Source: Liolophura sinensis
Lineage: Eukaryota > Mollusca > Polyplacophora > Chitonida > Chitonidae
Assembly: GCF_032854445.1 (NCBI RefSeq)
Contig: NC_088298.1
Location: 22,529,295 to 22,593,294 of the forward strand
Direction of reading: 5' to 3'
Length of the DNA: 64,000 nt
Positions 12,720 to 50,800 of the stretch are shown piece by piece. Under the pieces are notes generated by a model. That model made no database searches. It worked only from the letters and a program-made list of their open reading frames with translations, and was not told where the DNA came from. Both the position numbers and the translations under genes were made by a program. Each line of letters begins with the position of its first letter. Within the stretch, counting starts at the first letter, position 1.

Positions 12720-12823
12720 CTATTCCACTCCATGAGCAAATATCATGACTAGGCCTGGTTCTAATATCAAATCTGGAGGCATGTGCTGGTTTTCACAGGC
12801 CATCACCACAACGGCTTGTCTCC
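12720..12823 (-). CDS. RNF41: RNF41 exon 6 (C-terminus and stop)
   Basis: The acceptor TTTTTTCAG precedes the exon, which starts with GG and completes a split Gly codon from exon 5. It encodes [14 protein letters not shown], then [13 protein letters not shown] and a TAG stop at 12720-12722. This is the end of the USP8/receptor-binding domain and is almost invariant in the family. Confidence 0.95.
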
Positions 12824-15800
12824 CTGAAAAAAGAGTGAACAGAGAAATTCAGCCAATGATGGGTTAATTTCACATTCTCAAGCAAATACAGTAAATGACC
12901 CAAACATTCAGCTCAAACAGTCTATTTTTTGAGGCTCATAAATAAAAAAAAATCTATGAAATCATTTTTATGCACATTTTCAGTTGTTGGACCTGTTGAA
13001 TCTTATTTCATATTTTAGCTTTCTTCTACTTAAATACCGTACGTAATTTCTAGCAGAACTCCTCTTCACGACATTTTGCTTTTACTTTGTAGAGTTCATA
13101 CAAATCACCCTCACACAATTTTCCCATATATTATAACAGCACTGTCATTTCACAGCATTTTGCCTTTAATTTTTGCCTACAGAACTCCTCTTCACAACAT
13201 TTTGTCTTACCTTACACGTACTTTGTAATAGGCTTCTCATTTTCAACATTTTGGTTCAGTTTCTAACAGCACTCACGTTCAAAATACTTTGCATTTACTT
13301 TGTAACGGACTCTCATTCACAACATTTTCCTCAAACTGTAACAGCACTCTATTTCACAACATTTTGCCTTACTTTGTAACAGCACTCTATTTCACAACAT
13401 TTTGCCTTATTTTGTAACAGAACTCTACTTCACATTTTGCCTTACTTTGTAACAGCACTCTATTTCACAACTTTTTGCCTAAACACACTTTATTTGCAAT
13501 ACAACTGTGGTTCACAACATTTTACCTTATTTTGTAACAGGACTCTATTTCACAACATTTTGCCTTACTTTGTAACAGGACTCTATTTCACAACATTTTG
13601 CCTTACCTTGTAACAGCACTTTATTCCACAACATTTTGCCTAAACACTCTTAATCTGCAATACAACTGTAGTTCACAACATTTTGCCTTATTTTGTAACA
13701 GCCAAAAAGCACATACCAGGTATTCTCTTTGTGACATAGTTCTCGTACTGGCGTCGGTTGAGCTGGCGCGTTTCCAGTGTGCTGAGTCCAGGCGGCCACC
13801 TCCTCTCATGAGCGTTTTCCATCAGCTCATTGACGATGTGACTTGGGCAGCCGCTGTCCATCTGTGCACGTTTGATCACTGCTTGCAGCACGGCGTCAGG
13901 CGTGGAGATCATGCCACCCCAGCGTGTCACCCGCCGCAGGCTGTAAGCTGTTCAGCCACCTGCCAGAGGGACAACAAGAAAAAAAAGACAATCAATAAAA
14001 TACAAAGCAAGAAGGCACATTTGGATCAGGAGAAAAGATGCTGAAAGTCACACGACACACCTGTTTAAGTTCACTTGATGTACAATTTCCTGTTCATGAT
14101 TATATAGACATGGATGCAAGGACATCACATCACTGGTCAAGAGCAGTCATCAGCAGAGAGAGCAGTCCCATTTACCACTGAGCCAGCAAGACATGGATTC
14201 CAGGACATGACATCAATGGTCAAGCGCTAGTCGTGGACAACGACAGCAGCCCCTTATACAACTAAGCCAGCTAGAGGTGGATTCCAGAACACGACATCAA
14301 GAGGCTGCCATGTGCAGCTAGATCAAGCCCTTGGAACATTAAGCCAACAAGACTCACCTTAATACATCCGAGTTCTCCATTTCTGTCTGGATCTCCCTCA
14401 GTCGAGGGTTGGACGCCCTCAGAGACTTCATGTACTCCTGTAAACATTAAAACAGAGCTGGTCACCCTGTACACTTTTAGCTTTGTACATCGCTCACAAA
14501 CTCTCCAGCACTGGATGAAAACATCTGTTTTCCTAAAGATTGAACCCTTTATAGGCTATGCCATGTGGTCTGTACACACATGTACTTCACCTGAAGTATA
14601 GCTTTCTTCATGTTACATGTTTTTGCTTGATTGCTTGTGGCTAAGTGGAAGTCTTTTTTTGTGCAGTTTTGTTGATTACCCAAAAAAACTTAAGTGTTGA
14701 TCTGAAAATAATATTTTAGGGCCTCTGAAAGTGTATTTTTAAAAAAATTCCAGCCATATAAAAGTGAAAACATGCGATCTTTCGACACAATTTATTTATT
14801 TATTTACTTGATTCTTGTTTAATGCCATACTCAGTAAATGTTCACTTTTACAATGGCAGTCAGTTTTATGGATGGAGGAAACCCTAGAGTGACCAGGTTA
14901 AACCACTGACCTTTGGCAAGTCACTGACAAACTTTCCCACTTGTAAAGATATGCATAAAATATAGGTAACCAACAAGTACCTTAACCACCAGTCCCCGTC
15001 CTAAAGGGCCTATAAGGAGACAATATGGTGCATGGAGTTCACTCGAAGACTTCAGTGACCTGCTCTTTTTGTTGTTTTTTTTTCTTTTTTTCTCAAAAAA
15101 TCTGTAATGTTTACATCTGTGTACAAATTCTGCAGACAACATGACAAACCTTCACTAGGTGGACTTCCTGTTTGTCCTTAGTGACCATTTTTTAAAAACG
15201 GTTCTATAATGTTTATATCTGTGTACAAATTCTGCAGACAACATGACAAACCTTCACTAGGTGGACTTCCTGTTTGTCCTTAGTGACCATTTTTTAAAAA
15301 CGGTTCTATAATGTTTATATCTGTGTACAAATTCTGCAGACAACATGACAAACCTTTACTAGGTGGACTTCCTGTTTGTCCTTAGCAACCATTTTTTAAA
15401 AACGGTTCTATAATGTTTATATCTGTGTACAAATTCTGCAGACAACATGACAAACCTTCACTAGGTGGACTTCCTGTTTGTCCTTAGTGACCATTTTTTA
15501 AAAACGGTTCTATAATGTTTATATCTGTGTACAAATTCTGCAGACAACATGACAAACCTTCACTAGGTGGACTTCCTGTTTGTCCTTAGTGACCATTTTT
15601 TAAAAATGGTTCTATAATGTTTATATCTGTGTACAAATTCTGCAGACAACATGACAAACCTTCACTAGGTGGACTTCCTGTTTGTCCTTAGTGACCATTT
15701 TTTAAAAACGGTTCTATAATGTTTATATCTGTGTACAAATTCTGCAGACAACATGACAAACCTTCACTAGGTGGACTTCCTGTTTGTCCTTAGCAACCAT

Positions 15801-18800
15801 TTTTTAAAAACGGTTCTATAATGTTTATATCTGTGTACAAATTCTGCAGACAACATGACAAACCTTCAGCAGGTGGACCTCGCGTTTCAGTTCGCTGATC
15901 TGGAGTTTGTGCTCCGAGCCCTCTGTCTGTATTTCTGTTATCTTCTGTTGTTGTTGCTGCATTACAGTGCGGAGCTCGCGAACACAGTTGTGGTCCTACA
16001 AACAAACAAAAATGAATGACTTACATGTATAACAGCAGTGGTCATACAGACTGGAAAATATTTTTTTTCAAAATTCTGCATATGCTGGGAAATCAATGTT
16101 TTCCTTGAGGCACGCCAATGCTAAAATGCCTGAGACAGATACTAACAGCCCTACAACATCAATAATACCTAGTCTGTGGTTTTTTTTCAGGAATTATAAA
16201 AGTTTTAGTGTTACTTTAATATCCAACAAACGTGCTAATGGTGCACAAACAATGTTCTAAGTTAAAATCACATATTTATGTTTACCTTCATGTTGGTTTC
16301 GACATTTCACACACGTATTTCATGAGTAGATACTGTACAATAAGGCTTTTCATCATTCATAATTCATGTTAGCTATATTCTGTATAAAGTTTTGTAAACT
16401 TTGATACAATTTTTGAATTCACTTTAGAAACCTACTGCATTTAGCACAAGAATGCCACACTTCATAACAGAACAATAAACACACACCTTTCTTATCAAGG
16501 AAACCATGTACCAATTACTTGTATCAGTTAATCTCTTACTCATGCTCTTACTTGCACCGTTCACAACCTATCCTACCTTCAACTCATCTTTGGGCACAAC
16601 CAGCCCACAGCCCAGCTCACAATGGACTGGTTTTTTTGGGTTGTGCTCACATTCCTGGAGGTGTGACTGCAGCATGTCCAGTTTCACCACTGCTGTGCAC
16701 CCAAAACCGGCGTTATCACATGCGATCTGACATCGCGACAACAGGTTCCGCAGGATGCGGGGAACTGGTTTGAGCTGGTTGGGAGTGATAGGGTTGCGAT
16801 CTACAGGACAGGTGGGTTGTCGTGTCAGCCACTCTAAAATACAGGTCGAACAAAAGGCATGTTCGCACTGAGGGGCCTGAAAAGAAGCAATAAAAAACTT
16901 GCATATGAAAGTGTTGGTTAAACTGACAAAATCGAAACTGCAACACCAATAACAAAAATTGTTTCAAGCCAGTCCCTATTACTTTAATATTTATTTATTT
17001 ATTTGATTGGCGTTTTAAGCCGTACTCAAGAATATTTCACTTATATGATGGCGGCCAGCATTATGGTGGAAGGAAACTGGGCAGAACCAGGGGGGAAACC
17101 AACGACCATCCGCAGGCTGCTGACAGACCTTCTCATGTATGGCCAAAGAGACTACTTTTTAACTGTACAAAATACACGTAGCATGAACATGATAAAATGA
17201 TGGTACTGCAGAGTTACTGAGGCATATTTATTTTGTCATATTCAAAAATATTTCAGTTATGCAATGGAGACCAGTACGCTATGACAACCAACCCACAGTG
17301 TGAAAAGTGAACCATCAGCCTTTTGCAAGTAACTGTTGCACTTTTACACACGAAGCAAGAATTTTCAGCAAGTTCCATGTGAGCAGTCTATGCTGATTCA
17401 TGTACATGTATATATGTAGGGCATACTAATGGGGGGAACATGCAAAGAACATGGTCTTCCGAGAACAACAAAATGGTGAACATGTATTAGTGCTGATGAT
17501 TACTTATCGCCATCAATACTCCACGAACAACAGAGGCTGGGGAATCTCAAAACTTCCTTGCCTGAGGCCAGGTTTGAACCGACACCTGCATAAAACTAGC
17601 CAGAATTTGAAATCAGGGCATCTCATTCCCAGAGACACAGAGACACCCCCTCTGGCTAACTGTATGCTTGTGTGTCCAATGATTCAAAGACAATCCTCTT
17701 TGTTACTGTATTACTCAGGCAGCCACTGCTTACCTTGCTGAAATACTAGCGAACATACAGTTTCACATCTCACTAGACACGGTTCTTGTACATGTACATG
17801 ACTTCACCAGGCAAACCTGTACTAGAGCATATACACATACAGGTATGTAATCATGCAGTACATGTAGATATCTCATCCCTACCCACAGTCACAATCATTT
17901 ACTCATTAACACCTCTCACCACCTACCCACAGCAGACCCCATCTCTGAACAAAGCCTCCCCAAGATCCACATTTTACATATTATTTAAAACAGGCAGGTG
18001 TTTAACCAGTGTTGTATTTGGATGCCATGTACATAGACATTATTATGTCCCTGGGGATTTGTTCTCATACCTTTGTTCTCACAGCGGCACACAGTAGGTG
18101 ACTAGAGGCCTCCTACCATGTGCACCTGTGATTAACGGTCTCAACCCTATCTAAATCTACCTGTACATTTAACTGTTGCAGGGTATATACCCTTTCTTGA
18201 TCCCAAAGGGCACTTCAGGTGCATTTGTGCCTATGTAGCCAACATTTTCATCCATATTTGGGAGCACCCGGGCAATGCAATGAATCTGCTTAGTTTAAGC
18301 CCTGGTTCCTTTTTACTACCATTTTCCACCCGGCCTGTCACAGGCTGAAGTCCGTTGAATGAGCTGCCTTAACGTTTTGACGTCACATCAACAGCCACCA
18401 GTGACTGTCACGTAGATGACTGAACCAAACCCTTGACAAACACTAGCCACATGTGGCTGTTTCAACTCCTCTCTTTATATTAGCAGATTATCAGCCACAG
18501 CACCAGGAAATGGTAAATTATAAACCGTTTCACACCATGCGTGACAAGCCTTTTCTAAATGATGGCTGCAGTCCAAAACAGGTGTCAACTTTGGCCCTAC
18601 CTCTCACCTCAGCCCCACATGCAACATCCTACATATATTCCACTTGCTAAGGACAAACTAGACCTAAATTCACCTCACAGTCATTGCTAAAGCAAGAGCC
18701 ACATTTCCTTCACCACAGTTATGGGCCTTGAAAGAGTTATCGTTCCTGGATCATGTATGCACCTTAAACCTGAAAACAGGAAGCTAATGGCCGTCTGGTT

Positions 18801-20238
18801 TAGAAATGGTTTGCCATGTCATGAATACGGGGCTAGTGTACCATTATTGAATGGAATACACCTGGGACAATGCATGTGCGGGCGAGCTGAGAGGTAAGGG
18901 CCAAAGTTGACACCTGTTTTGGACTGCAAAAATCGCTTGGAAAGAACGAGAAAACGGAGCACGGCTTGTCAATGGCTGCTGCTGTGGCTATGATACTCTG
19001 CCAGTCCAGATGAAAGAGAGGAGTTGAACTAGCCACCTGGGGCTAGACAAAGACTGAAGATATTTATTTACATGTATTTATTCATTTGATTGGTGTTTTA
19101 CGCCGTACTGAAGAATATTTCACTTTTACAATGGCGGCCAGCATTATGGTCGGAGAAAATCGGGCAGAGCCCGGGGGAAACCCACAACCATCCACAGGTT
19201 GCTGCTAGACCTTCCCACTTACGGCCGGAGAGGAAGCCAGCATGAGCTGGACTTGATCTCACAGCGACCGCATTGGTGAGAGGCTCCTGAGTAATTACGC
19301 TGCGCTAGCGCGCTAACCAACTGAGCCACAGAGGCCCCCGACTGAAGATATAACAACACTAGTAATAATAATAACACTAGTAACAAATATGGGAATGTGC
19401 CAGTTCCTCTGGGCACATTTATTATTGCCCGTATTCCTTTTACGGCTTCAAGACTTTTTCCTATTATTGAACAAAGCCAGCGTTGTCAAAGCACTCACCT
19501 GCAGGGGTTCCTCCAGAACTCCACTACAGATAGGGCAGATTAACTCTTCATCAAAGCACTCACCTGCAGGGGTTCCTCCAGAACTCCACTACAGATAGGG
19601 CAGATTAACTCTTCATCAAAGCACTCACCTGCAGGGGTTCCTCCAGAACTCCACTACAGATAGGGCAGATTAACTCTTCATCAAAGCACTCACCTGCAGG
19701 GGTTCCTCCAGAACTCCACTACAGATAGGGCAGATTAACTCTTCATCAAAGCACTCACCTGCAGGGGTTCCTCCAGAACTCCACTACAGATAGGGCAGAT
19801 TAACTCTTCATCAAAGCACTCACCTGCAGGGGTTCCTCCAGAACTCCACTACAGATAGGGCAGATTAACTCTTCATCAAAGCACTCACCTGCAGGGGTTC
19901 CTCCAGAACTCCACTACAGATAGGGCAGATTAACTCTTCATCAAAGCACTCACCTGCAGGGGTTCCTCCAGAACTCCACTACAGATAGGGCAGATTAACT
20001 CTTCATCAAAGCACTCACCTGCAGGGGTACCTCCAGAACTCCACTACAGATAGGGCAGATTAACTCTTCATCAAAGCACTCACCTGCAGGGGTTCCTCCA
20101 GAACTCCACTACAGATAGGGCAGATTAACTCTTCATCAAAGCACTCACCTGCAGGGGTTCCTCCAGAACTCCACTACAGATAGGGCAGATTAACTCTTCA
20201 TCAACATCACCTTGGAATCGGTTCAATTCGTACCCCAT
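12720..20238 (-). CDS. RNF41: RNF41/NRDP1 RING E3 ubiquitin ligase, six coding exons
   Basis: Coding exons in transcript order: 20149-20238, 16577-16876, 15864-15995, 14358-14437, 13717-13959, 12720-12823. The 949 nt total is one more than a multiple of three; without the extra base in exon 5 the product is 315 aa (human is 317). The RING has C18, C21, C34, H36, C39, C42, C53 and D56, the family's C3HC3D pattern. A SIAH-type zinc finger follows ([12 protein letters not shown] to CELGCG), then a coiled segment and the C-terminal substrate/USP8-binding domain ([35 protein letters not shown]). The family ubiquitinates ErbB3, Parkin and BIRC6 in vertebrates; the substrate in this animal is unknown. 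An acceptor (TTCCAG) 4 nt upstream of the ATG, at 20243, suggests an upstream noncoding exon. Four of five introns start with tandem arrays. Identity is very secure; intactness depends on exon 5. Confidence 0.95.
13120..13700 (-). repeat. 38-bp tandem array at the 5' end of RNF41 intron 5
   Basis: On the minus strand the unit reads CTGTTACAAAGTAAGGC, then AAAATGTTGTGAAATAGAGTG. The GTAACAG marks on the plus strand fall at 13338, 13376, 13414, 13449, 13534, 13572, 13610 and 13696, so the spacing is 38 bp with two longer steps of about 85. The array begins about 17 bp inside the intron. Many units carry a GTAAGG donor-like core in the sense direction, one of them as CAAGGTAAGG. Confidence 0.9.
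13717..13959 (-). CDS. RNF41: RNF41 exon 5, with one extra base or an alternative acceptor
   Basis: The acceptor GGCAG at 13960-13964 has a strong pyrimidine tract. The exon opens with WLNSLQPA, as in the family, then shifts frame. [13 protein letters not shown] resumes one base later, because the sequence has GCGGCGGGTG where one G fewer would keep frame. Using instead the internal acceptor CTTACAG, which starts the exon at 13940, gives 224 nt and an intact frame ([10 protein letters not shown]) but drops about nine conserved residues. Donor: CCTG then GTATGT. Confidence 0.85.
14107..14357 (-). repeat. 84-bp degenerate tandem repeat at RNF41 intron 4 donor
   Basis: Three diverged units start at 14107, 14191 and about 14275 (ACATGGATGCAAGGACA, ACATGGATTCCAGGACA, AGGTGGATTCCAGAACA on the plus strand). 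Each preceding unit ends GCCAGCAAG, GCCAGCTAG or GCCAACAAG; the last runs straight into the donor ACTCAC of exon 4. Confidence 0.75.
14358..14437 (-). CDS. RNF41: RNF41 exon 4
   Basis: Acceptor TTTACAG, donor GTGAGT. The 80 nt encode [20 protein letters not shown] and ENSDVL plus two bases of a split codon. It matches the family's segment that follows HLLK and begins the C-terminal domain, but its second half is less conserved. Confidence 0.93.
14786..14935 (-). mobile_element. SINE-A variant, partial, in RNF41 intron 3
   Basis: Tail TTTATTTATTTATTTACTTG, then TTTAATGCCATACTCAG and ATGGATGGAGGAAACCCTAG. The right part follows a variant subfamily (GTGACCAGGTTAAACCAC) also seen at 42430 and 47380. 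Confidence 0.75.
15100..15863 (-). repeat. 102-bp array derived from the 3' end of RNF41 exon 3
   Basis: Unit boundaries equivalent to the exon 3 donor fall at 15150, 15252, 15354, 15456, 15558, 15660 and 15762; the next step of 102 is 15864, the true exon edge. On the minus strand each unit ends GTCCACCTAGTGAAG followed by GTTTGTCATG; the exon ends GTCCACCTGCTGAAG followed by the same intron bases. Units are nearly identical to each other but differ clearly from the exon in the last 30 coding bases. The upstream frame reads [12 protein letters not shown] against exon LKREVHLLK. Confidence 0.95.
15864..15995 (-). CDS. RNF41: RNF41 exon 3
   Basis: Acceptor TTTGTAG, donor GTTTGT (weak). The 44 codons [20 protein letters not shown] to LKREVHLLK close the SIAH-type zinc finger and form the coiled-coil-like stretch. 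Phase 0 at both ends. The 3' part of this exon is the seed of the adjacent 102-bp array. Confidence 0.95.
16577..16876 (-). CDS. RNF41: RNF41 exon 2 (RING second half and zinc finger)
   Basis: Acceptor CTTTTCAG, donor GTAGG. Exactly 100 codons, phase 0 at both ends, from [12 protein letters not shown] through [22 protein letters not shown] and [17 protein letters not shown] to PKDELK. All remaining RING ligands are present. The plus-strand ORFs opposite this exon are shadows. Confidence 0.97.
16988..17155 (-). mobile_element. SINE-A in RNF41 intron 1
   Basis: Tail TATTTATTTATTTATTTGAT, body AAGAATATTTCACTTATATG and AGCATTATGGTGGAAGGAAA; the head is missing. A weaker fragment follows at 17222-17330 (TCAAAAATATTTCAGTTATG). 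Confidence 0.85.
17331..18440 (-). other. RNF41 intron 1, unique sequence
   Basis: No coding signal, array or element recognised. The plus-strand ORFs here (17451-17741, 17786-18097) show no domain and lie inside the intron. Confidence 0.4.
18447..19035. repeat. Long inverted repeat in RNF41 intron 1
   Basis: The left arm, about 18447-18660, and the right arm, about 18825-19035, are reverse complements over long stretches. Anchors are TTCAACTCCTCTCTTT, GCAGTCCAAAACAGGTGTCA and CAACTTTGGCCCT on the left and their complements on the right. The spacer is about 165 bp. In pre-mRNA this would fold into a long imperfect hairpin. It could be a foldback element or an inverted duplication. Confidence 0.85.
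19060..19338 (-). mobile_element. SINE-A, best full-length copy
   Basis: All parts are present: tail TATTTATTCATTTGATTGG, GTTTTACGCCGTACTGAAGA, GGCGGCCAGCATTATGG, AGGAAGCCAGCATGAGCTGG, CACAGCGACCGCATTGG and head GAGCCACAGAGGCCCC. Read on the minus strand, the head shows GGCCTCTGTGGCTCAGTTGG and GAGATCAAGTCCAGCTC as A-box and B-box-like elements, so this is a tRNA-derived SINE. Confidence 0.93.
19487..20203 (-). repeat. 65-bp array derived from RNF41 exon 1 and its donor
   Basis: Eleven units with exact 65-bp spacing; donor-equivalent edges fall at 19499, 19564, 19629, 19694, 19759, 19824, 19889, 19954, 20019, 20084 and the true 20149. Each unit carries the last 50 or so coding bases of exon 1 ([17 protein letters not shown]) plus CAG followed by GTGAGTGCTTTGATG. 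I see one substitution in the whole array (the unit at 20021, GGTACC for GGTTCC). Reading past the true donor meets TAA after seven codons. Confidence 0.97.
20149..20238 (-). CDS. RNF41: RNF41 exon 1 (start codon, RING first half)
   Basis: ATG at 20238-20236, then [19 protein letters not shown] and [11 protein letters not shown], 30 codons, phase 0. C18 and C21 are the first two RING zinc ligands at the same positions as in human. The start is fixed by the conserved MGY opening. Donor CAG followed by GTGAGT is close to the U1 optimum. Confidence 0.97.
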
Positions 20239-20605
20239 TATCCTGGAACATTAGATCGGGGAAATTAATATACATTTTATTCATCTGTTCTGCCAATACT
20301 CTATAGGTGATTTCTAGCCACAATGCTTTATAGCACTTGGCCAGCCACTGGCCATTAGGTTCAGCGTATGGTTAGCCAGTTTCCCGTCCACTGTCCACTA
20401 AAAAAAAAAAAAAAAAACACTAGTGTTATCTGGACACCCTCTTTTCACCACTTTTAAGCGAAAGGAGAAAATGTAATCTGAATACCTCCCTATAAACAAA
20501 ATGGCCCCTTTCAGATTTCTGGCTAATCCCCTGGGGTCCAGGCGGCTCAGATTTTCACACACCATGAGCATCTTAATCCATCAGTCACGTCAGCACCATC
20601 ATTGA

Positions 20606-20802
20606 CATTTTTTAATTTATTTGATTGATGTCTTATACAGAACTCAAGAGTATTTCACTTCTACCACGGCGGCCAGCAGAGCCCTGGTGAAACTGAAGAC
20701 TATCCACATTTGCAGGACTTGAACTCACAGTGACCACATTGCTGAGAGGCTTCTGGGCCACTGTGCTGCGCTAGCACGCTACCCACAAGCCACAGAGGCT
20801 CG
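20606..20802 (-). mobile_element. SINE-A with internal deletion
   Basis: ACTCAAGAGTATTTCACTTC and GGCGGCCAGCAGAGCCCTGG mark the body, where the ATTATGG segment is deleted; the head ends CAAGCCACAGAGGCTC. Confidence 0.85.
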
Positions 20803-25540: not shown

Positions 25541-25544
25541 AACC

Positions 25545-25640
25545 GCTTTGGTGGCCTAATGGTTATAGAACGTCCGCCTCGAAATCGGGAGATCTAGAAT
25601 TAAAATCGGTTTGGGTCACCCCAAATGTCCTTTGATTACA
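25545..25640 (+). mobile_element. SINE-B head fragment (tRNA-like)
   Basis: GGTGGCCTAATGGTTATAGA then CGTCCGCCTCGAAATCGG resembles a tRNA A-box half. The same head in reverse complement ends the SINE-B copy at 30605-31000. The B box is decayed and the rest of the SINE is missing, so it is not a functional tRNA gene. Confidence 0.7.
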
Positions 25641-25751
25641 ACTGTTCATACATCCAACGTGTCAGTCTAATTTAACACGACAAATACATGCCCCGGATGC
25701 TTATTAACTGGGATGCAAACTGGAAGTCTCTGTTTTTCTTATTGGAGTGAA

Positions 25752-26130
25752 GATCAGACCTTACAGTCCTGGAAGAGTTGCCATATATATATGCGAACGA
25801 TCAGACCTTACAGTCCTGGAAGAGTTGCCATATATATATATGCGAACGATCAGGCCTTACAGTCCTGGAAGAGTTGCCCTATATATATGCGAACGATCAG
25901 ACCTTACAGTCCTGGAAGAGTTGCCCTATATATATGCGAACGATCAGACCTTACAGTCCTGGAAGAGTTGCCCTATATATATGCGAACGATCAGACCTTA
26001 CGTTCCTGGAAGAGTTGCCATATATATATGCGAACGATCAGACCTTACAGTCCTGGAAGAGTTGCCATATATATATGCGAACGATCAGACCTTACAGTCC
26101 TGGAAGAGTTGCCCTATATATACATGTGAA
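25752..26130. repeat. 47-bp minisatellite, eight units
   Basis: Units start GATCAGACCTTACAGTCC at 25752, 25799, 25848, 25895, 25942, 25989, 26036 and 26083. Each has GGAAGAGTTGCC(A/C), then a TATATATATGCGAAC stretch; the single 49-bp unit has one extra TA. Overlapping ORFs in all three plus frames are a by-product of the stop-free unit. Confidence 0.95.
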
Positions 26131-26633
26131 GGATTCAACAACGTATGCCCTGTCCAGTTCCTCCAGTCGTTAAGAGCAGTGCACCGTCATGCGAATGAAA
26201 TACTCTTGAGCTGGCCTACAATAAACACCCGTTAGTAAGACATGAATTAATAATTGTTTAATTTAAAGGGAACTGCATTGGATTAGGACAGCGTAGTTCA
26301 TTGCCTCTGGGTGGGGAAGTCATATATGCTAATAAAGTGACTCACGCATCAATTGGAACTGTGCTTCAGTGGCCGACTCCACAAAGCCATTTCTGTTTAA
26401 GGCGGAATATGAAAAATATTTCAGACATTACTTTTGGGTTCAGAATTTCAGAAATTTGAAATTTGAAAATGAAACCGCCTCATAAACGTTATTTTCAAGC
26501 AAGTATGTCGAAATTTCAACTTGCAGAACCAGAAACTATTTAATTAAGCACTGTGATGAGGGTTTCATTTTTGACTTCGGCCAAAACTGACTTTGCTTTT
26601 GGAATCGACCCCGTGCAGATCTTCCTTGATGTG

Positions 26634-26862: not shown

Positions 26863-26869
26863 GCAGCGT

Positions 26870-28700: not shown

Positions 28701-28707
28701 AATGTGT

Positions 28708-29945: not shown

Positions 29946-29947
29946 GA

Positions 29948-34450: not shown

Positions 34451-34506
34451 ATATGATAAAAAGAAAATGTACCTAGCTTGCACCAAAGAACCCGTTGAAT
34501 TCATGT

Positions 34507-35813
34507 TTATCTCCGACGCGAAGATATCCTTGGACGTTCAGAATTTTCTTCACGCCTTCCCCTAGAGTCCCGGGGTTCTTTAGCTCTACTATCCTTGTAC
34601 CTATCGTACTCTCTATCCCTGTCTGAGTCGCGTCCGTTATCCTTATGTCTATCAGAATCTCTGTACCTATTGAAATCTGTATCATTATCTCTGGATCTAC
34701 CAGCATCCCGGCCATTATCCCTGGATCTCTCTGGTTCTCGGCCGTTATCTCTGTACCTGTCAGATTCTCTGTCATTAACTCTGGACCTATCGAAATCTCT
34801 ATCTCTGTACCTTTCAGAGTCACGGCCGTTATCTCTGTACCTCTCAGGGTCACGTCTGTTATCTCTGTACCGATCTGAATCTCGTCCATTATCTCTGGGT
34901 CTCGCATAGTCACGGTCATTATCTCGCTGTCTTCCAGAGTCCCAAAGCCTCTCTATCACATCACCCCTATCTCTTCGTCTCTCCTTCTCTACTTGTCTAT
35001 CACCTCTATCATATCTGTCTTCTCTAAGTCTATCCTTTCTTCTGTCCTCTCTTAACTCTTCCCTCGCATCCTCATAACCATCTCCCCTATCACGCTGGTC
35101 TCCTTTAGATTTGCTGGAAGCATCCCTGGACCTATCGTCTCTTCGATTATCAAGTCCTTTCTCCTCCCTTTCTTTCCCATAATCCTCAGCCTCACTGGAA
35201 TCATCGGAGTCCACACTCTCCTCTGATTCACTATCCCCACTTATCTCTTCATCTTTTCGCTTGTGTTTTGGTTTTCTCGAACTTTCCTTTTCACCTACCG
35301 CAGAATATTTGTCAGACGACCTTGAAATGTTATTTGACTTTGAACTCTTTTGCTCTTTTCTGGAGGACTGTTTGTCACTTGATCTTGAAATCTTATCATT
35401 TGACCTTGAAAGCTTTTCATCTGACCTTGACCCTCTGTCATTTCCACGTGAATGGTTGTCATCTGACCTCGGGTCAACTGACTTGGAATGTTTGTCGTAT
35501 GACTTTGAATTCTTCTCTGACCTTGAACTCTTGTCCTTTGATTTTGACCTCTTGTTATCCAACCTTGAGTTTTTGTCACGTGACCCTGAACTCTTGTCAC
35601 CTGACCTTGAAGTTTTGTCTTTGGGTCCTGCCTTCTTGTCATTAGGCCTTCTCTGTCTATCCCAGGGATCAGAATAGCTATCACGCTGGTCAGGAAAAAT
35701 GTCAGAGTCTCTAACGAGGCCATTAGCAACTGGTCCCTGCTTCTCTTTGCCTTTGTTGTTCTTCGCTGGGGAAACTTTCTTCTTTTTCTTCTTTGATCTT
35801 TCATCGTCAGAAT
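34507..35813 (-). CDS. CWC22: CWC22 exon 20 (long RS/RD-like tail)
   Basis: Acceptor GGGTTTAG; the first two bases complete an Asp codon ([13 protein letters not shown]). Residues 911-1345. First comes a run of KSxDKxSRS units, then about fifteen [11 protein letters not shown]-type units of 7-11 residues, ending RISSRRR and TAA at 34507-34509. Strong codon repetition makes long antisense ORFs, which are shadows. Confidence 0.95.
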
Positions 35814-38800
35814 CTAAACCCATGGAAAGCAGACATTCTATCAGATGGACAGCACAGCGTTTTCACAGTTATGAGCGTGTTAATACGTGTACTTGTACAC
35901 AGATGTGTGAACAACCTTGATTCATACCTATATGTTTTGTCATAAAACATGTCAGGCAAAAATGTCAACAAAATTCATGAATAAAGTATTACACAGTGAA
36001 GTTCAAATACCATAAATATTGTTTTCATGAATATCAAGCCCAATGGAGTCTCTTTCTAGTTTTAAAAGGCGTTTCTTTTTATGATTTGGGTTTGACGTCT
36101 TCCTGAAGACTTACACCGTGTAAGTTAAACCAGGGATCTGAAAGAAACGGGCGTTATCTTATTTATCGGATTGGTGTTATATGCCATACTTAAGAAATTT
36201 CATTTATATATGGCCAGAATTATGGTGGGAAGAAACTGGGTAGAGCCCGTTGGATACCCCTGACTATCCGGAGGCTGCTGACAGACCTTCCCACTTACGG
36301 GGGGAAAGGAAGCCAGCACAAGCTGGACTTTAACTCACAGCGACCGCATAGGTGAGAGGCTCATGGGTCATTGTGCCGTGCTGGCGTGCTAACCCTCTGG
36401 GTCACAGAGGCCCCATTGTGCATGTAAGTTAACTGTGTTGCCACATGATCACTGTCAACCATTTATTGCCATCCCAACCGTGTATATTCTCTGTCCAAGG
36501 AGAGAACTGAATCAACAGTTGAAATGAAAGATGGACAAGCATCCAGTCGCCCCCAAAAGACCAAGAGCATGATGAATGGTAAAGCCCTGAATGGTATTCA
36601 TATGATGGTTGTGTTTTATCTCTCCATCAGCATGTCATTCATTTCATCATTTCATTCATTTGATACAACCATTGTACAACAGCTGTCATGGAAAGGAAAC
36701 CAGCCAACCAGTTGAAATTTTGGCACATTTGTCTTAAAGTAACACTGATGAGGGACACAGAATTTTAATTCCTAAAACCCAAAAATAAGCTTTGAGATAG
36801 TATTTCAAATTTTGACTTAAGTCAGAAATGGCTTTGTGGAATCGGCCCCTGACATGTAACGAATATCTAAAATATGAAATTAGAATTCAACTGTTACTTT
36901 GAAACAAATGACAGGTCAGCATAAGGAGCCACAACCACAAGACTGGAGTTTACCTGAATCAGATTCCAAGCTGGAGTCACTGCTGTCATCAGAGTCCGAG
37001 GAGTCAGAGGAAGAGTCAGAGGAGGAGTCACTGCCTGAACTGCTATCAGAGGAGTCGGAAGATTCAGACTCCGGCTCGGCTAACTGTTTCTGCTGCATCA
37101 GCTGTTTGGACAGATTTCTCAGGTGCTCTCTCAAGTCGTCCCTATAAATGTTTAGCTGATTAGTGTTTTAACCCATACACAAGAATATTTTATTCACCCT
37201 AATTCCTCTCCACCTTTTTGCATATAAAAGAGCAACGTTCAGTGCAATTTATACATACTTTTAATTTGATTCTGAATTTTGATTCTTGAATAAACACTTT
37301 GCAAACATGCGAAAAGCTTGAAGAATCACAGAATCCAATGACCAACATATGGTGAGAAGAAACCAGACAGAAATTGTGAAAAATCCACGACCATTCCTAA
37401 AAATTATTGCAGTACTTCCACTGTCTAAACACAAAACGGTTTCTTTGCATTTTTCACACAAAAACTTCACAAAGCCACATTGTTATAAACAAATTCAGAG
37501 AGCTTTAAATTAATATATATCCCATGCATATAAATATGCACGACTTGCAAAAATGTTTGGTTTTAGAAACTTCACTTGAGAGACTACAAAATGGATTTGC
37601 ACACAAATTTTACAATATTTTGAGGAGACTGCACATAAATAATAATGGACTACAGATACTGACACAACCAAATTAATATCCACCTCTTGAAAAAAATAAA
37701 AGCGTAAGCTATTAATTAATAATATATAGATTCCATTTGGATTAAAAGGAGTTAATACTGTGCATGTTTACGATGGCTACTCAAATGTTTTCATTTTATT
37801 TCTACTTTATTTATCTGACTGATGTTTTATGTTGTACTCAAGAATATTTTACTTATACGACAGCGGCCAGCGGGAAACCGTGATAAACCCACACCCATCC
37901 GCATTTTATTTCTAATCCTAACAATACTATAATTAAAGACATACAGCAGAAAGACTAATACCAGAGCAGCAACGATGGGTGTGATGGCTGGCGACAAGTG
38001 ACTTGTAACCTTGGAGATACACGAAATCTGGTCTCTTATCAACTAATGTCAGTTAGGGTTTTATGAATAGGACCACTGGTGTCTCAATAATTGGCCATCA
38101 TTTCAATTTGGCAAATATGCTTACGTTAATCCTCCCAAGCCGATAGTGGTGAAGAAGTTGATGGCAAATCTTGTGTTCTTGGGATTGTCCCTCGGCATTA
38201 TACCTTCAAACCACACCTGAAGAGTTCTGTAAAGGGAGATAAATTGCAGTTAATAAATAATGCTTGAATCTGGTTGAACTTACACTGCAAAAATGGTAGG
38301 TTAAAACCCACTTTAAAAAATCAACCAAGCAAATGTTTAAAATACTTAAACGACAGATTTCCTGACACATGTTTCAACTTTACTCAGTGTATTTCACCTT
38401 AAAAAAAAACAAAACAATTATACAACCTTTTTTTTTTTCAATTATTTTAAAAAGTTTTTACTTTAAAGAAAAAACAAAAACTGTTTTAAAGATTGTCATT
38501 TTCTAGAAAATCCATTGATTTGAGGAACATTTAGAGTAAATCCAAACTTTAGGCTTGTGCTACGAGGTGCTAAAGGTTTACTCCCACCATACGATTTACG
38601 TGCATTTCCAGTCCCAGCTAAAATATGTTCATATATTGTGATAATCGTGCATTTTAAAATCTGTGAAAGCCATCTCTAAAATCTGTGAAAGCCATCTCTA
38701 AACGAGGAATGAATGATTATGGTTTAACGCCACAACGGCAATATTTCAGCCATATCGTGGCGATCTAAAAGAGGAAGAGTTTGTGATGTATTATGGGGCC

Positions 38801-41800: not shown

Positions 41801-44800
41801 ATCTCTCTAATGTTCCTGGTAAATCAAACCAATGAGCCCCACTACTTGAGACAGGTCACAGTGGACTTGAGCTCGGGAAGATTGTAAACTGATGCAATGT
41901 GGCTGTCTCAAATAAGACACGCAATATGGTGGTCTACATATGGCACTTTTATACATGGGCTGATTATTTCAAATATTGAGTTTGAGTTACTGGTCAAATG
42001 AATACTATGATTTTGACAAACAACAACAACATTTTATTTATCTGATTGATGTTTTACGCCGTACTCAAGAATATTTCACTTGTGTGACATCGACCAGCAT
42101 TATGGGAGGAAACTGTGCAGAGCCCAGGGGAAACCCGTGACCATCCGCAAGTTACGAGCAAACGATATTTTCTGTTTTAATAATCCACAGATGAAATTCT
42201 CAAGTAATGAGCTTATTCTGTTTCTGTACGCATATACCTCTTGGCCTGGTTTAAGCTCCATCCTCATGATTTTGTGGGCACACTCCTCGAAGTCGAGACT
42301 GGACTGTATGGTGAGGTAGATGGTCCGACGCAGCGCCACGAGATTCGTCTCGGTCTGATCAATGATCTTCTGCTGCTCTTCCTCTGTGCAAATCACAACA
42401 CACTCATTGGTAAGGGGAGTGGCTGAGGGTTGTTTTACGACATACTTAAGAACTTTGCACTCGTAGGACGGCGGTCAGTTTTAAGAGTGTTGGAAACCAA
42501 GGTGCCCTGAGTGAACCACCAAAGTATAAGAGTGCCCAGGGTGAACCACTAGACTACAAGAGTGCCCGGGGTGAACCACCAAACTACAAGAGTCCCTAGG
42601 GTGAACCACCAGACTACAAGAGTCCCCAGGGTGAACCACCAAATTACAAGAGTGCCCAGGGTGAACCACCAAAGTACAAGAGTGCCCAGGGTGAACCACC
42701 AAAGTATAAGAGTGCCCAGGGTGAACCACTAGACTACAAGAGTGCCCGGGGTGAACCACCAAACTACAAGAGTGCCCGGGGTGAACCACCAAAGTACAAG
42801 AGTGCCCTGGGTGAACCACCAAAGTACAAGAGTGCCCAGGGTGAACCACAAGACTACATGAGAGCTCAGGGTGAACCACCAGACTACAAGAGTGCCGACA
42901 GTGAACTTAAAGGAAGCTGCAGACAAACCTTCCCACATGGGACATACAGGAAGGCACTGGTGGAAGAAAAGAAGTCATTAGCGATTGTTCAACTGTGCAG
43001 ACAGCCACATGAGCATCACCGATCACTTCTAGTCTCTAGAATCCCACAAGCAATGATCGAGACAATCCACAACTTCCCTGTCCAAGACAGGCAAATTAGA
43101 AGAGAATCAACACAAGATGATGAAGTGAAGACAGAACAGACAATTCATAAACAGGAGCAGTAATGAGGTGAATTACTCACTTATGCCATTTTTTTAACAG
43201 AAATGTTGTGGAATCTTGCATTACACGGGACCTGGGTGCTAATTTTGACTCAATAGCCCATGTTTTAACCTAGCGGCAGCGTGCTTTCTACATTAAACAT
43301 TCCTTTCACTGAAATTCTGCACTGGAAATCGTGTCCCCATTTGAGGTAACTTAGAGTAAATATACAAGTACTACATGAATCTTCTGCTGGAGTTTGTTAC
43401 CTGAATAACTGAAGAACAGCACACTAAGGGAGGTAAGTGACTTGATAATCCTCTTCACTAACAGCGCTGAGAATATGGTGGTGCTAGTATCATATTTACC
43501 TCTACTGTGCAGGGCCCGGTTGTTCAAAACTGTTTGAAGACTTAATACCAGATCTAACTTTAACCAAGTCCTCAATTTCGTACTTAGCCCAAAGGTAATT
43601 GCATAACAGTATATTAAATATGAACTAAGCCTTCTGCTGTTATACTTTAGACTTTGGTCAGCTCGATTAGTTGCTGAAGTTGTTTAAAAGTCTGAATTAC
43701 AAAACTTACTTCATACCAGTTTTAGCTAATACACTTTCCAACAACTGGGCCCAGGTTTAGGCAGGCCAAACAAAGGGGAGATAACTCACCATCATCTGCC
43801 TCTTCATCCTCGTCACTGCTGTCCTCTCCACTACCACTTCCAGACTCTCCATCAGAGCTGTCCTCATCCAGGATTTCTGTACACAACAACAACAACAACA
43901 GAGTCACGGCCTAACCAAGAGCTGGACGATAGCAAGTAGACATTAACTGATGGTAACTAGCTAATATATATGTACAGTCAACAGTGGCTTGCTGACGCAA
44001 ATTCCATGTAGCCACTAACTAGCTGATGTGCACAGACCAGCAACTACATGTAGTCTACATGATATCTGGCTGGAAATGAAAACGAACACCGAGGCTGTCC
44101 TCTCCAGTGAAAAACTGAGAAGCACCTCATCTGTTCATCCTTACACATGTAAGTTCCTCACATTTTTTCGCTCAGTCAGAGGACTTGACTGATTCAGAAA
44201 TGGGTTTTGGTAAAGTAAGAAAAACCTTACCTTTCTTCAGAGTCTTGTATTTGTCCTCATTGACAACAAAATCAGGATCAGCCTTAAAGACATCTGTAAA
44301 GTGAGAAAGCAAAATCAGAGAATTACTAAAATGTGGTTGTTAATTTAATGTTTTGAAGACACCTTAAAAACCTGATCACATTATGTTATTGTAGCAGGAG
44401 TTTTCACTGATGTGATCGGTCGCTTTTATGGCTGGACAAAACTGGAGTGCACGGGCTACATCAGCGACCCATGACAAGTTACTGGCAATTTTTATCACTT
44501 GTGCTTGGGGTTTTAATGTTGTACTGAACAATTGTCAAGTCATATGACAAGGCGTCATTATGTGTTTGTACACAGACCATGTCTTCTTTTTGTAGGGTGA
44601 GTCCATGCCACCAAAGTGCTGCAGCCACTGAAGTATCATGCCGAAGACACCCAACATAACATCCCACCCAGTCACATTTTATACTAACATCGAAGGTCTG
44701 CCAGCAACCTGCGGATGGTTGTGGGTTTCCCCTCGGCACTGCCTGGTTTCCTCCCACCATAATGCTAGCCGCTGTCGTATAAGTGAAATATTCTTGAGTA

Positions 44801-47800
44801 CTGCCTAAAACATCAATCAAATAAATAAATAAATATACCGACACCCGGCCAACCAGTAATGCTTCTTTGCTGTAACCTCTCAGTGCTGAGTTCCAAGCGA
44901 GGCAGCAACAAGTACCATTTTTAAAGTCTTTAAAAATCTTAACATCTCTCAACAGACGCTCTAACCACTAGGGCACCAAAGCAGTCCCTTTTTCGCTTGT
45001 GTGATGTACAAATACACACCATACTGGTCGAAGATAACAGGTCCAACCACTGTTTGACTGTGTTAACAGCCACATGAGCGGTGTCAACCACTGGTTGTCT
45101 GCACGACCTTGGGAAAAGCAAGACCAGGCAAATCTTCAGATTCCATGTCTACAGCCAGCTTTCTTCAAGCAGTGACACTGGTAGTTGTAATGCTGCATCA
45201 CAGGAATGCCATTCTGAAGACACCAGATACAACGTCCCACATTTGCAGTATACGTACACTGGGCAAACAGAAGCTGGCTTATCCTACTATGCTACAGAGA
45301 ACTGAGAACGTATTGATTGAAAGTAAAGATTAAACTGAGGATATCCTCTGCCTGTCTGGAACTGATCACAAGACAACTCACTACTACTAATGACAAGATT
45401 ATAGGGGGATATACTGACTGAGGATATCCTCTGCCTGTCCGGCCTCCTCCAGGGTGAGCAGATGTGTGAACTGATCGTCTTCCTCCACAAGGTCAAGGTC
45501 AGACACTACAGATGGGTGATCCTGGAAACAAAAACAGTTGACTTCTACAAATTTCTCCCACACAGAGGGAAATATCCTGTGTTAATATCATCAAGCAAAG
45601 CACAGATATCAAAAATACCAGAATTTAATTTTATATTATAAATTTTATTTGTGTTTCATGCTGGGCTCCCAAATTTTTCATATATATTTAGATTTAAGGG
45701 TGGAAAATATTGGATTACCTGGAGTAAAATACCAAAATTCAACAACACCTGATAAACCTATTAACTTAAAAAATCTCTTAGAATTTTTTCTCTTATACAC
45801 TGGTGGAACAAAGCTCAGAGAAAACCAACTGACTCTGCTTGTTATCTGACGAATCTGTTGACATAAGGAAAGAGCTAAGCCACAGAAAGACTGGTCAAGG
45901 GCAACTACTGTCATCTAAACAAAGACAGTGATGACTGCTCTCGCACCACCTACCCCCGTCACACGAGGAAGTTAATCATTTGTTGTATGTATATGTATGC
46001 TTGGGGTTTAATGTGGTACTTAATTCTTCAGTCAGATGACAAGGAGGAGTCATTAGACATTGAACATATACATGTACTTGTGGCAGGGTGAGTCGACTGA
46101 AGTATCACGCCGAAAACACCAAACATAACACCCCAAGTGTCACATTACACTGACACCGTGTTACCTTGGTCTAACCTCTGAGTGCTGAGTGCCAAGAGAG
46201 GCAGCAACAAGTACCATTTTTAAGCCTTTTGTATGACCTGTCCGGGTTTTGAGTGAGTGAGTGAGTGCTTGGGGTTTAACGTCGTACTCAACAATTTTTC
46301 AGTCATATGACGACGAAGGAATCATTAGGGTGCATGTACGTGTAATGTGCCTCCTTGTTGCAGGACGGATTTCCACCGCTCTTTTATTTAGTGCTGCTTC
46401 ACTGAGACGACTTACCGAAGGCAAGTAAGCCGCCCCGCCCGAGCCATTATACAGATACGGGTCAACCAGTCGTTGCACTATCCCCTTCATGCTGAACGCC
46501 AAGCCAGGAAGTTACAACTTCCTCTTTTAAAGTCTTAGGTGTGACTCGATCAAGGATTGATCCTGGATCTACCGGTCCCGAAGCGGACGCTCTACCAACT
46601 GTGCTATCCGGGCCGGTATCCCGGTTTTGATAAAAGGTCCCGGGTTTGACACCATTAGGTTAGCAAAACTGTCACAATCCTCTGTTGTAACAATCAGCAG
46701 GAATTACAAATTCCGCCATGAATATGATAATTCAACATCTGTTGCCTACAAAAGTCGGTTCCAAGCTGTGTACAAACACATCAGCCTCAGCTGTTAAACT
46801 GCGGTGCTTGTGAACTACGTCTTTGCTTTACGAACACAACCATACAGCAATGGTGAAATGTCTGAGCCACCAATAAAACAACACACTGATGGGACTGACT
46901 TATTCCAGGCGTTCCCCGTTCCACTGTGTCTTACCTTGAAACCATCTTTCCTGATGGCAAACATCACCTCTACCATGTACTGCACTCTCTTGTCTATCTC
47001 CCCCTCGTGTAGAATTGTACGAAGCCTCTCAAATATAGCTGTGAGGAAACAACATATGATTTGTTTATTTATAAGATTTGTGTTCACCGCCGTACTCAAG
47101 AATATTGCACTCATACAACACTATGGTGGCAAGAAACCCAAGCCGAACACAGGGGGGAACCCACGACCATCCACGAGTGGCTCGCAGACTTTCTAAGTTC
47201 CCTACCAGAGAGGAAGTCAGCATGAGCTGAACTCAAAGAGGTCGCATCCGTGAGAGGCTTAGGGGTCATTGTGCTACACTGGACCATGGAGAGCTCTAAA
47301 ACTACAGATGAATTTTAACATAAAGTCGACCAGATGCTAATCCTAGCGACACAAGTACAACACAGCTTCCATTTTATTTCTACTTTTCTGATTGTTAACA
47401 GCACACTCAGGGAATTTTTCGCTTATATGATTGAAGTCAGTGACATGGATGGAAGTAACTGACATAGATGGAAGTCACTGACATAGATGGAAGTCAATGA
47501 TATGGATGGAGGAAACCAAAGTGCCCTGGGTGAACAAGCTGACAAAGGCACGTTCCCAACATTAAGTGCTGTCCTAACAACAACTGTCCATCTGAATCAA
47601 GTTAACATCTGGTCAGATTACATTTATATTCAGGCATATTTCTCTCCAAACTGCAAGTATGACCAAACCGCTCAATTCATTTTCAATTTTCACGTCGAGA
47701 CATCATTCTGTTTCTGATCACATTTCACAGATGTTGTGAAGCATAAAACATCAGTGCCAGGCTTCTCCTCCTGGACACATAACTCAGTAAAACAGACCAG

Positions 47801-50800
47801 CTAGCATATAACACCTCACCATTTATCCCCCTTGGAGACACCTCAGTCAGTTTCTGACCACACTCTTTGAGAAAGCCAATTGCCACTTCTACTGAGTCAT
47901 CCGTCGGTGTTTCCATCAGTAAAGTCAAGATTTCCAGAGCTAGCACCTCGTGGGCCTGAAACACATTTGCTGAAGATAAGCTCATTGGTTTCATTCAGTT
48001 ATTTGATTGTTCTTTGAATGCCATTCTTAATACTTTCTTACTTTCTGTAAATCTTTAACCTTTTCAACGTCTAGAGCACGTTTTTTCAGTGGAATTTCTG
48101 CACACAATTATTATGAAATGATGATGATGATGATGCAAATGATTTCTTTGTATCAGTAAAAATGCAAGCTTCATAAAACTGAGCAAATTATTTCTCTACA
48201 CCCCACAAGGTTCTTTCACAAGCTTTCAAAACATTGGTCGCAGTGGTAGAATGAAAAGGTTGAAAAGTATGGGTTGTCAGCATTTTGGATGGCAGACACT
48301 TAAGTGCCAGGTGTATAAACCAGCATAAACCTGATATCCTCCACTATGTTCACTAACAATCAACAGGTATGTGAACTGTTATACATCAGTTTGAAATTCT
48401 ACACAATCTGAACCAATGAATGAGTGGAGAACTCTTGACAAGCCTATTAAATTTGGTGCATGCTTTCTCCCACACTAAATCATGTCAGTTCCTTCCACTG
48501 ACAGATGTCAATGTGACCAGATGAGTCACACACAGACCACTTTGTCAGTCATTCACCACATGCTGGTTGACTAGATGAGTCACACAGAGCACTTTTTCAG
48601 TCACTCACCACTTGCTGGTTGACCAGCTGAGCAACACATAGAACACTTTTTCAGTCACTCACCACTTGCTGGTTGACCAGATGAGTCACACATAGACCAC
48701 TTTGTCAGTCACTCACCACTTGCTGGTTGACCAGATGAGTCACACAGAGCACTTTTTCAGTCACTCACCACTTACTGGTTGACCAGCTGAGCAACACATA
48801 GACCACTTTGTCAGTCACTCACCACATGCTGGTTGACCAGATCAGTCACACATAGAGCACTTTTTCAGTCACTCACCACTTGTTGGTTGACCAGCTGAGC
48901 AACACAGACCACTTTTTCAGTCACTCACCACTTGCTGGTTGACCAGGTGAGCAACACACAGATGACTTTTTCAGTCACTCACCACTTGTTGGTTGACCAG
49001 GTGAGCAACACATAGACCACATTTTCAGCCACTCACCACATGCTGTTTGACCAGATGAGCAACACATAGACCACTTTTTCAGTCACTCACCACATGCTGG
49101 TTGACCAGATGAGCAACACATAGACCACTTTTTCAGTCACTCACCACATGCTGGTTGACCAGATGAGGAACTCACAGAGCACTTTTTCAGTGACTCACCA
49201 CATGCTGGTTGACTAGATGAGCAACACATAGAGCACTTTGTCAGTCACTCACCACTGTTGACCAGCTGAGCAACACATAGACCATTTTGACAGTCACCCA
49301 CCATATGCTGGTTGACCAGATGAGCAACACAGACCACTTTGACAGTCACCTACCATATGCTGGTTGACCAGCTGAGCAACACATAGACCACTTTGACAGT
49401 CACCCACCATATGCTGGTTGACCAGCTGAGCAACACATACACCACTTTGACAGTCATCCACCATATGCTGTTTGACCAGATGAGTCACACATAGACCACT
49501 TTGTCAGTCACTCACCACATGCTGCTTGACCAGATGAGCCACACACAGAGCACTTTCTTAGTCACTCAACCCATGTTGGTTGAAAAGATGAGCAACACAC
49601 ACAGGCCACTTTTTTAGTCACTCACCACATGCTGGTTGACAGATGAGTCACACATAGAACACTTTTTCAGTCACTCACCGCTTGCTGGTTGACCGGATGA
49701 GCAACACACAGACCACTTGTCAGTCACTCACCACAAGTTGGTTGACTAGATGAGCAACACAAAGACCACTTTTTCAGTCACTCACCACAAATTGGTTGAC
49801 CAGGTGAGCAACACATAGACCACTTTGTCAGTCACTCACCACTTGTTGGTTGACTACATGAGCAACATGTAGACCACTTTTTCAGACACCCACCACAAGT
49901 TGGTTGACCAAATGAGGAACACAGCACTTTTTCAGACACTCACCACTTGCTGGTTGACCAGATGTGTCACACACAGAGCACTTTTTCAGACACTCACCAC
50001 TTGCTGGTTGACCAGGTGAGCGATAAAACGAGTTGAGGACAAGCACACATTCTTGTCGTTTCTGCGGAATCCTCTTCGGAACTGGATGATCAATCGTCGC
50101 AGTATTAGCTCGCCATTCTGAGGAAACTGTTCAAATTAAGAAACACTGATATAATTATTCTACCAACTAGAAAATGTATTCATTTATTTATTTGAAAGGT
50201 GTTTTACGCTGTACCCAGGAATATTTCATTTACACCCTGATGACCAGGATTATGGTGGGAGAAAACCGAGCAGAGGCCGGGGGGAAACCCATGACCACTG
50301 CAGGTTGTTCGCAGACCTTTCCTCATACTGCTGGAGAGGAACTGGACTTGAACTCACAGCAACTGCATTGCTGAGAGGCTCTTGGGTCATTGTGCTGAGT
50401 TGGCGTGCTAAACACCCTTGGCCACAGAGATCCCGAACAGAAAAGTTTCAGCACTAAATAAAAGTTATGCTTTTTGTTTCTGGGCCTATCAAAATGACCT
50501 TTCTCACGTGGAAATTTTCTTATTTTGACTATTTTTTAATACGTGATGGGTGTTTTACAGGGTGTTCTCAGGAATATTTCTATCCTACATGCAAAAGTAC
50601 AAGAACAATCAAGAGTCCTATAGAATACAATTACACAAATGGATTTCAGGAAATTTCATCAAACATGTCAATTATCTGACCTTAGTGTTGATGATGGCCA
50701 CCAGGGCGGCGTACACTGATGTGAAGGTGGGGGAGGCAGCCTGGGCCTGGATGACTGAACGGGCCAGCAAACCTCTGAAAATAATAGTATACTAGATCAG

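Follow-up and report, generated by a model that had tools for sequence, protein, structure and literature searches.

Tandem arrays carrying exon ends and 5' splice sites in RNF41 and CWC22 of a chiton, and a modest excess of such arrays at sampled donors

Array-bearing introns of RNF41 and CWC22

The window analysed here, a stretch of 64,000 nucleotides of chromosome-scale DNA from the chiton Liolophura sinensis (G000:C4:22529295-22593294), carries the genes RNF41 and CWC22, both on the minus strand, and several introns of the two genes open with a tandem array at or near the 5' splice site (donor). The assembly comprises 609,464,459 bases in 632 contigs; its published description, under the name Liolophura japonica (GCA_032854445.1), gives 632 scaffolds, 14x HiFi coverage and a mean read of 8,347 b (PMC11068029). 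Arrays were called with Tandem Repeats Finder (TRF), and an offset is the array start minus the first intron base, in gene orientation.

RNF41 was identified by Pfam matches to RING and USP8_interact and by tblastn with the human protein. A USP8_interact profile search of the genome returned this locus alone, with two exon matches, and may have missed a copy. Exon 1, from the ATG, lies at 20238-20149 (83% in tblastn to human residues 1-30), and its GT donor is at 20148. The last 56 nt of the exon belong to the first unit of an array at 19486-20204 (65 bp x 11.1; offset -56; TRF 99%). The units carry the exon end and the donor CAG/GTGAGTG, and eleven identical donors follow one another at 65-nt steps. 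Exon 2 (16876-16577; tblastn 68%, with the RING-finger match) is followed by intron 2, in which TRF called no array. Exon 3 (15995-15864; tblastn 50%) contributes its last 15 nt to the first unit of the array opening intron 3 (15101-15878; 102 bp x 7.6; offset -15; TRF 97%), whose units carry the exon end and the donor AAG/GTTTGTC, with eight donors in register.

The arrays of RNF41 introns 4 and 5 begin inside the intron, without spanning the boundary. Exon 4 (14437-14358) has a weak tblastn match (E 0.03), AG and GT borders and a frame that runs on into exon 5. The degenerate 84-bp array opening intron 4 (14106-14353) has about three copies. TRF placed it at 14106-14300 (x 2.3, 79%), with its edge at +57; a diverged first copy at 14353-14304, found by local alignment (0/1000 shuffles scored as high), brings the start to +4. 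TRF overlooks diverged arrays, and its edge can, as here, sit tens of bases inside the true start. Exon 5 (13959-13717) carries the USP8_interact match and one base too many for the conserved frame. The array near the start of intron 5 (13244-13702; offset +14) was called as 38 bp x 10.3 (13244-13641) and as a higher-order repeat of 161 bp x 2.2 (13346-13702), and includes a 33-nt copy at 13388-13420. Exon 6, with the stop, lies at 12823-12720 (tblastn 82%). The joined coding sequence measures 949 nt; the extra base falls within 13917-13959, where the reading frame is lost past LNSLQPA and another frame encodes the conserved RVTRWGG. It may reflect real damage to the gene, an allelic variant or a mistake in the assembly.

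CWC22 was identified by a Pfam match to MA3 and by tblastn with human CWC22, which gave 15 exons (the last weak, E 0.76) and hence 14 introns between them. The exon at 49998-50129 (tblastn 64%) is followed by an array of 54 bp x 28.2 at 48514-50021 (offset -24; TRF 85%), with units that carry 24 nt of exon end and the donor GTG/GTGAGTG. The array holds 20 exact GTG/GTRAGT sites, counting the exon's own donor. Elsewhere in the gene, 26 bp of an exon end and its donor are duplicated once (45417-45442 and 45334-45359; 25/26 identical, spacing 83), and further intron arrays, for example 42498-42896 and 47429-47510, start hundreds of bases away from a donor.

These placements agree with a sequence-only reading of the window, which had reported arrays near the donor in RNF41 introns 1, 3, 4 and 5 with intron 2 as the exception, about 27 units of 54 bp opening a CWC22 intron (its intron 8), a single duplication at the donor end of one CWC22 exon (its exon 11), and three arrays with the exon end and donor in the unit, namely those of RNF41 introns 1 and 3 and of the CWC22 intron. 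It had also taken the arrays to be independent events, and they look so: the units differ when their TRF consensus sequences are read by eye, and the intron-1 array of RNF41, the only unit searched, matched the genome three times, always within its own array, in a search that skips very common words.

Junction-crossing arrays in genome samples

The prevalence of such arrays was counted in two samples of conserved housekeeping and signalling genes, with the window itself kept outside the counts. Sample 1 comprised 40 gene stretches (259,430 b), fixed from exon matches before the sequence was seen and so blind to repeats; they were chosen by hand for dense exon matches of the kinesin, CCT and cullin families, which favours compact genes. 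Joining neighbouring exon matches gave 86 introns, of which nine were dropped for a low splice score, leaving 77. Sample 2 comprised 116 donors, with 311 b each, at exons of kinesin, UCH, kinase, CCT and cullin genes; 18 donors could not be placed and were dropped before counting, leaving 98. Omitted from sample 2 were rows at the end of a Pfam domain, most rows rich in in-frame stops, and kinase rows whose long open frames mark single-exon genes. Exon edges came from profile matches and splice consensus, and from consensus only where there was no matched neighbour (in sample 1, 61 donors and 74 acceptors; in sample 2, every one of the 98 donors), and at least one acceptor edge is probably misplaced. 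The pooled counts cover 236 donors (138 and 98) and 151 acceptors. An array was counted as straddling when it started at most 60 b on the exon side; one that straddles a donor at -97 (locus L001) thus lies outside the count. Where a unit limit was applied, a duplication was allowed to straddle a donor only when starting within one unit of it. The p-values are uncorrected for the several windows tried.

Tandem arrays are abundant in these genes. Sample 1 contained 82 arrays (period at least 10, non-overlapping), covering 14% of all bases, and the 77 introns (L001-L040) held 24 arrays in 16 introns, covering 19% of intron bases. The published repeat table assigns just 0.08% to other repeats (simple repeat, microsatellite, RNA), against the 19% of sampled intron bases; much of the difference may sit in its 14% of unclassified repeats.

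Arrays straddled 10 of the 236 donors (4.2%), and inspection by eye of all ten found the exon end and GT repeated in the intron. Random placement with the unit limit predicts 3.26 (per-locus density) or 3.48 (global density), a ratio of 3.1; without the limit, about 5.1 are expected and the ratio is about 2.0. The locus-bootstrap interval of the unit-limited ratio is 1.1-5.3. For sample 2 alone, 5/98 donors were straddled (start -60 to -1) against 63/3,000 random intronic windows (2.1%). These results reveal a modest donor excess over random placement. The sequence-only reading had held that chance would rarely place arrays at donors, and for straddling this stands in part. Its proposal that arrays start within about 20 bp of donors more often than at random intronic positions did not hold on the intron side, where starts at 0 to +20 numbered one at donors and none at acceptors in sample 1 (about one expected each) and 0/98 in sample 2 (random windows 25/3,000, 0.8%), that is, 1/236 donors in all.

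Pure chance placement, by which arrays are common enough to land on donors with no excess at all, would suit some of the counts. Among the 77 complete introns, three arrays started at -40 to +20 of the donor against 2.09 expected under uniform placement (p 0.35), and the mirror count at acceptors was two against 2.09. Without the unit limit, the 138 donors of sample 1 gave 6 against 3.95 expected (-60 to +20) and 7 against 5.85 (-100 to +20), and its 151 acceptors gave 5 against 4.32 and 5 against 6.41. At a TRF score of 30 instead of 50, starts at -60 to +20 in sample 2 numbered 6/98 against 125/3,000 (4.2%). The pooled unit-limited donor count and the straddling rate in sample 2 speak against it, and we regard an origin by chance alone as quite unlikely.

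Acceptors are hit as well, and donors are therefore not the one kind of site that the sequence-only reading had proposed. The machine count gave 5/151, of which three are clear by eye (2.0-3.3%): L012 at 401, L024 and L026. The case in L012 at 1818 is marginal, since only four exon bases are shared and the units lack AG, and that in L004 probably reflects a misplaced edge: a likelier acceptor, at which the array ends, lies some 41 nt downstream. With 2.08 expected under the unit limit and about 3.2 without it (bootstrap interval of the unit-limited ratio 0.45-4.3), an excess of straddled acceptors above the random rate is not clear. A donor bias is possible, and counts of this size do not separate a rate of 4.2% at donors from one of 2.0-3.3% at acceptors.

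Three loci illustrate the anatomy, with coordinates in gene orientation. At L033:6088-8105, a kinesin exon end and its donor recur about 27 times at 73-bp steps, and another part of the array gave a kinesin match of its own in the genome search. At L031:1570-4834, 46 units of 71 bp (3,265 bases) make up the bulk of a kinesin intron of 3,773 bases, the array starting 6 nt inside the exon. The case at L012:135-424 is clearly on the acceptor side: the intron before a cullin exon holds copies, at 74-bp steps, of the exon start with its upstream sequence.

The ten straddled donors lie at nine sampled loci, and this recurrence of like anatomy also bears on whether copies were expanded or collapsed by the assembler. 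Coverage is only 14x and the frame break in RNF41 exon 5 is possibly an assembly error, which would fit such an artefact; the mean HiFi read exceeds the window arrays discussed (0.2-1.5 kb) and the units carry private variants. We consider an assembly artefact highly improbable.

The window itself is richer in arrays than the sample. By TRF edge, 4 of its 19 introns (5 in RNF41 and 14 in CWC22, a hand count) have an array starting at -60 to +20, compared with 11/236 sampled donors (binomial p 0.010, post hoc). RNF41 alone has three of five (p 0.0009, again post hoc, as the window prompted the hypothesis). Arrays at four of its five introns make RNF41 an outlier, and it was the sequence-only reading that singled this gene out.

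Origin of the arrays and fate of the copied donors

We consider it probable, on balance, that the arrays reflect ordinary minisatellite birth in introns rich in tandem repeats, with duplications across a splice junction being tolerated. Minisatellites would arise by local tandem duplication and grow by slippage or unequal exchange. A duplication straddling the junction would be tolerated, since the real splice site is retained by the copy next to the exon, which remains functional. Further copies would lie in the intron, lose coding constraint and drift, and some acceptors would show the mirror image. For the donor excess we lean weakly to longer persistence or detectability rather than to donor-specific mutation, in that selection may hold the exon copy and keep the array recognisable.

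The divergence of the copies indicates that exon-derived sequence within the introns is free of coding constraint. Exon-derived and intron-derived columns of the intronic copies diverge by 0.102 and 0.095 in the CWC22 array, 0.088 and 0.108 in L033, 0.078 and 0.042 in L001, 0.045 and 0.008 in L004, and 0.011 and 0.066 in L031, where only six columns are exon-derived. In CWC22 the two kinds of column are about equally diverged.

Selection for extra donors was raised by the sequence-only reading as selection for additional U1 sites. Extra donors might, for example, suppress premature polyadenylation or regulate splicing. Under such selection, the donor columns should be the best-kept part of the units. 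In the four more diverged arrays, the donor window ranks 10/54 in CWC22 and 13/71 in L031, within the better-kept fifth, and 43/73 in L033 and 72/109 in L001, outside that fifth; in the three least diverged arrays the rank is decided by ties. Conservation of the copied donor columns thus does not consistently exceed that of the remaining unit. The 20 exact donor sites remaining in the CWC22 array would suit extra-donor selection, and the early stops that follow from later donors argue against it. Any donor after the first leads to a stop at residue 37 in RNF41 intron 1 and at residue 186 in intron 3, and read-through into the CWC22 array reaches a stop at most four codons past the exon end. 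We consider selection for extra donors very unlikely.

If RNF41 and CWC22 are functional, the reading frames imply that the first donor must be picked often enough. In RNF41 intron 1, where eleven identical donors sit in near-identical 65-nt contexts, choice of a later one would truncate the protein within a few codons. Such loci make the choice of the spliceosome among equal 5' splice sites directly measurable by RNA-seq, and our literature search on competing 5' splice sites returned no match. For now the finding concerns the biology of repeats, and the modest excess is explained only tentatively. At L120 and L023, intronic donor copies appear by eye nearer to consensus than the presumed real donor (GTAAGC vs GTATGC; GTGAGA vs GTAAAA).

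Several results weigh against ordinary birth with tolerance. The donor excess has a Poisson p of 0.002-0.003 (unit-limited), and random placement with full tolerance alone does not predict a 2-3 fold excess. After the eye check, acceptors stay near the random rate. Arrays at four of five RNF41 introns exceed what a model without gene-level heterogeneity allows. The persistence idea draws on internal identity in sample 1, where straddling arrays have a median of 80.5% and the others 88% (n 10 and 72, p 0.02), and on ten arrays of which two are the doubtful acceptor cases. The arrays of RNF41 introns 1 and 3 have 99% and 97% internal matches, so not all straddling arrays are old, and the five straddling arrays of sample 2 have 82-97% internal matches in windows that cut the arrays short; the age argument is weak because neither set is old. 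Genome-wide, the triple motif CAGGTRAGT (15-45 spacing) occurs 996 times against 249 for the reversed motif (4.0 fold), and arrays of the acceptor motif TTTYAGG are not enriched (1,716 vs 1,769 reversed) in a test that is insensitive, most matches probably not being acceptors.

The last two counts bear directly on a donor-specific mutational mechanism, for which the sequence-only reading had suggested replication slippage at exon ends, linked for example to R-loops or to U1. The single motif CAGGTRAGT is itself more frequent than its reverse (19,904 vs 7,585, 2.6 fold), a ratio below that of the triple arrays. Within C1:1-18.84 Mb, 16 distinct donor-motif arrays face 4 reversed ones, with p 0.32 when normalised by the motif ratio and 0.04 by the locus ratio. 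Among the first 100 matches listed, clusters per motif locus were 9/53 against 9/81 reversed for at least two within 700 b (p 0.44) and 7/59 against 2/85 for at least three within 300 b (p 0.03). The motif test agrees in direction with the sample, and its significance is borderline, depending on the definition.

A donor-specific component may therefore contribute: besides this contrast and the near-random rate at acceptors, the donor ratio of 2-3, the small number of clearly straddled acceptors (3/151) and the homogeneity of the two RNF41 arrays speak for it. Against it stand the straddled acceptors themselves, the lack of excess at 0 to +20, and the dependence of the motif contrast on normalisation. 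Furthermore, preferential birth at donors predicts that straddling arrays are young, and those of sample 1 are not younger than others but more diverged. Nothing points specifically to R-loops or U1, and we regard a donor-specific mechanism as unlikely, if still worth weighing.

The broader claim that exon ends are favoured sites for the birth or retention of arrays, 2-3 fold over the intron background, with roughly 1 in 25 donors trailed by a series of its own copies (several to dozens), is in our view possible and is put forward tentatively. If it is true and the sampled rate applies genome-wide, the genome would hold thousands of naturally occurring arrays, each offering near-identical 5' splice sites among which the exon-proximal copy must be picked, and the arrays would be a standing feedstock for intron growth and gain.

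Relation to amphioxus mirages, and other features of the window

The anatomy has a precedent. The sequence-only reading knew of no described system of this form; two amphioxus papers, however, report mirages, which are tandem duplications of exon-intron boundaries in globin, Adh3, troponin C and PGBD5 genes (PMC3087553, PMC3902484). As described there, mirages are minisatellite-like, with units of about 10-160 bp at 5' or 3' boundaries, and many copies carry AG/GT signals. Those reports attribute concerted evolution to the inner copies of one globin gene, describe regular splicing as undisturbed by mirages in Adh3, troponin C and globins, and mention allelic or somatic copy-number instability; the globin authors also propose a model of intron gain from boundary duplication (PMC3087553, PMC3902484).

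The chiton arrays share with mirages their minisatellite-size units (65, 102, 84, 38 and 54 bp), the spanning of the boundary by the unit in RNF41 introns 1 and 3 and the CWC22 intron, unlike RNF41 introns 4 and 5, and the involvement of both 5' and 3' boundaries, the latter in the samples, as the window has donors only. In anatomy, the arrays with exon-spanning units fit the definition of mirages. They differ in occurring in a mollusc, not a cephalochordate, and in having a measured prevalence, about 4% of sampled donors and 2-3% of acceptors. The phylum, as far as the literature searched goes, and the prevalence figure are new: among the papers examined in our search for boundary minisatellites, only the two on amphioxus describe multi-copy boundary arrays. 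Boundary minisatellites like those of amphioxus thus extend to a different phylum, where their frequency can be measured; this is relevant to models of intron gain by tandem duplication. Intron 1 of the earthworm metallothionein gene holds minisatellites, and one clone has duplications of the fourth exon; the relevant passages of that report do not call them boundary repeats.

The arrays might mark a step on the way to new or longer introns, formed as segments bearing AG/GT are duplicated in tandem. Such a model has been published for the amphioxus globins (PMC3087553) and for potato RdRp, where a single tandem duplication of a splice boundary supplied new splice signals (PMC4974935). The chiton arrays likewise involve local tandem duplication across a splice boundary, with many copies in place of the one in potato, and the L031 intron consists largely of its array. 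However, chiton introns are only candidates for new introns, one genome having been examined, and we hold this explanation to be scarcely probable.

Introner elements are dispersed copies of one family and, like the chiton arrays, place repeated sequence with splice signals in introns. They were rejected as an identity of the chiton arrays, since each array has its own unit and the intron-1 unit of RNF41, the only one searched, was found nowhere else.

Other repeats lie near the two genes. Related dispersed elements with a common core and an AT-rich tail, resembling short interspersed elements, occur at about 19080-19330, 17000-17170 and 50210-50460 (minus strand); tRNA and Rfam scans of the window returned no match, and two of these stretches were without inverted repeats. 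Downstream of the RNF41 stop, possibly in the 3' untranslated region, lies a 104-bp tandem pair at 11758-11967, the copies of which are 98% alike. An open frame of 451 codons with internal 21- and 30-bp repeats, without a Pfam match, lies 3' of the last CWC22 exon found (34507-35862, minus strand). Outside the coding spans found, arrays of 27 bp x 17.6 (7812-8285) and 47 bp x 7.9 (25752-26122) are open in several frames.

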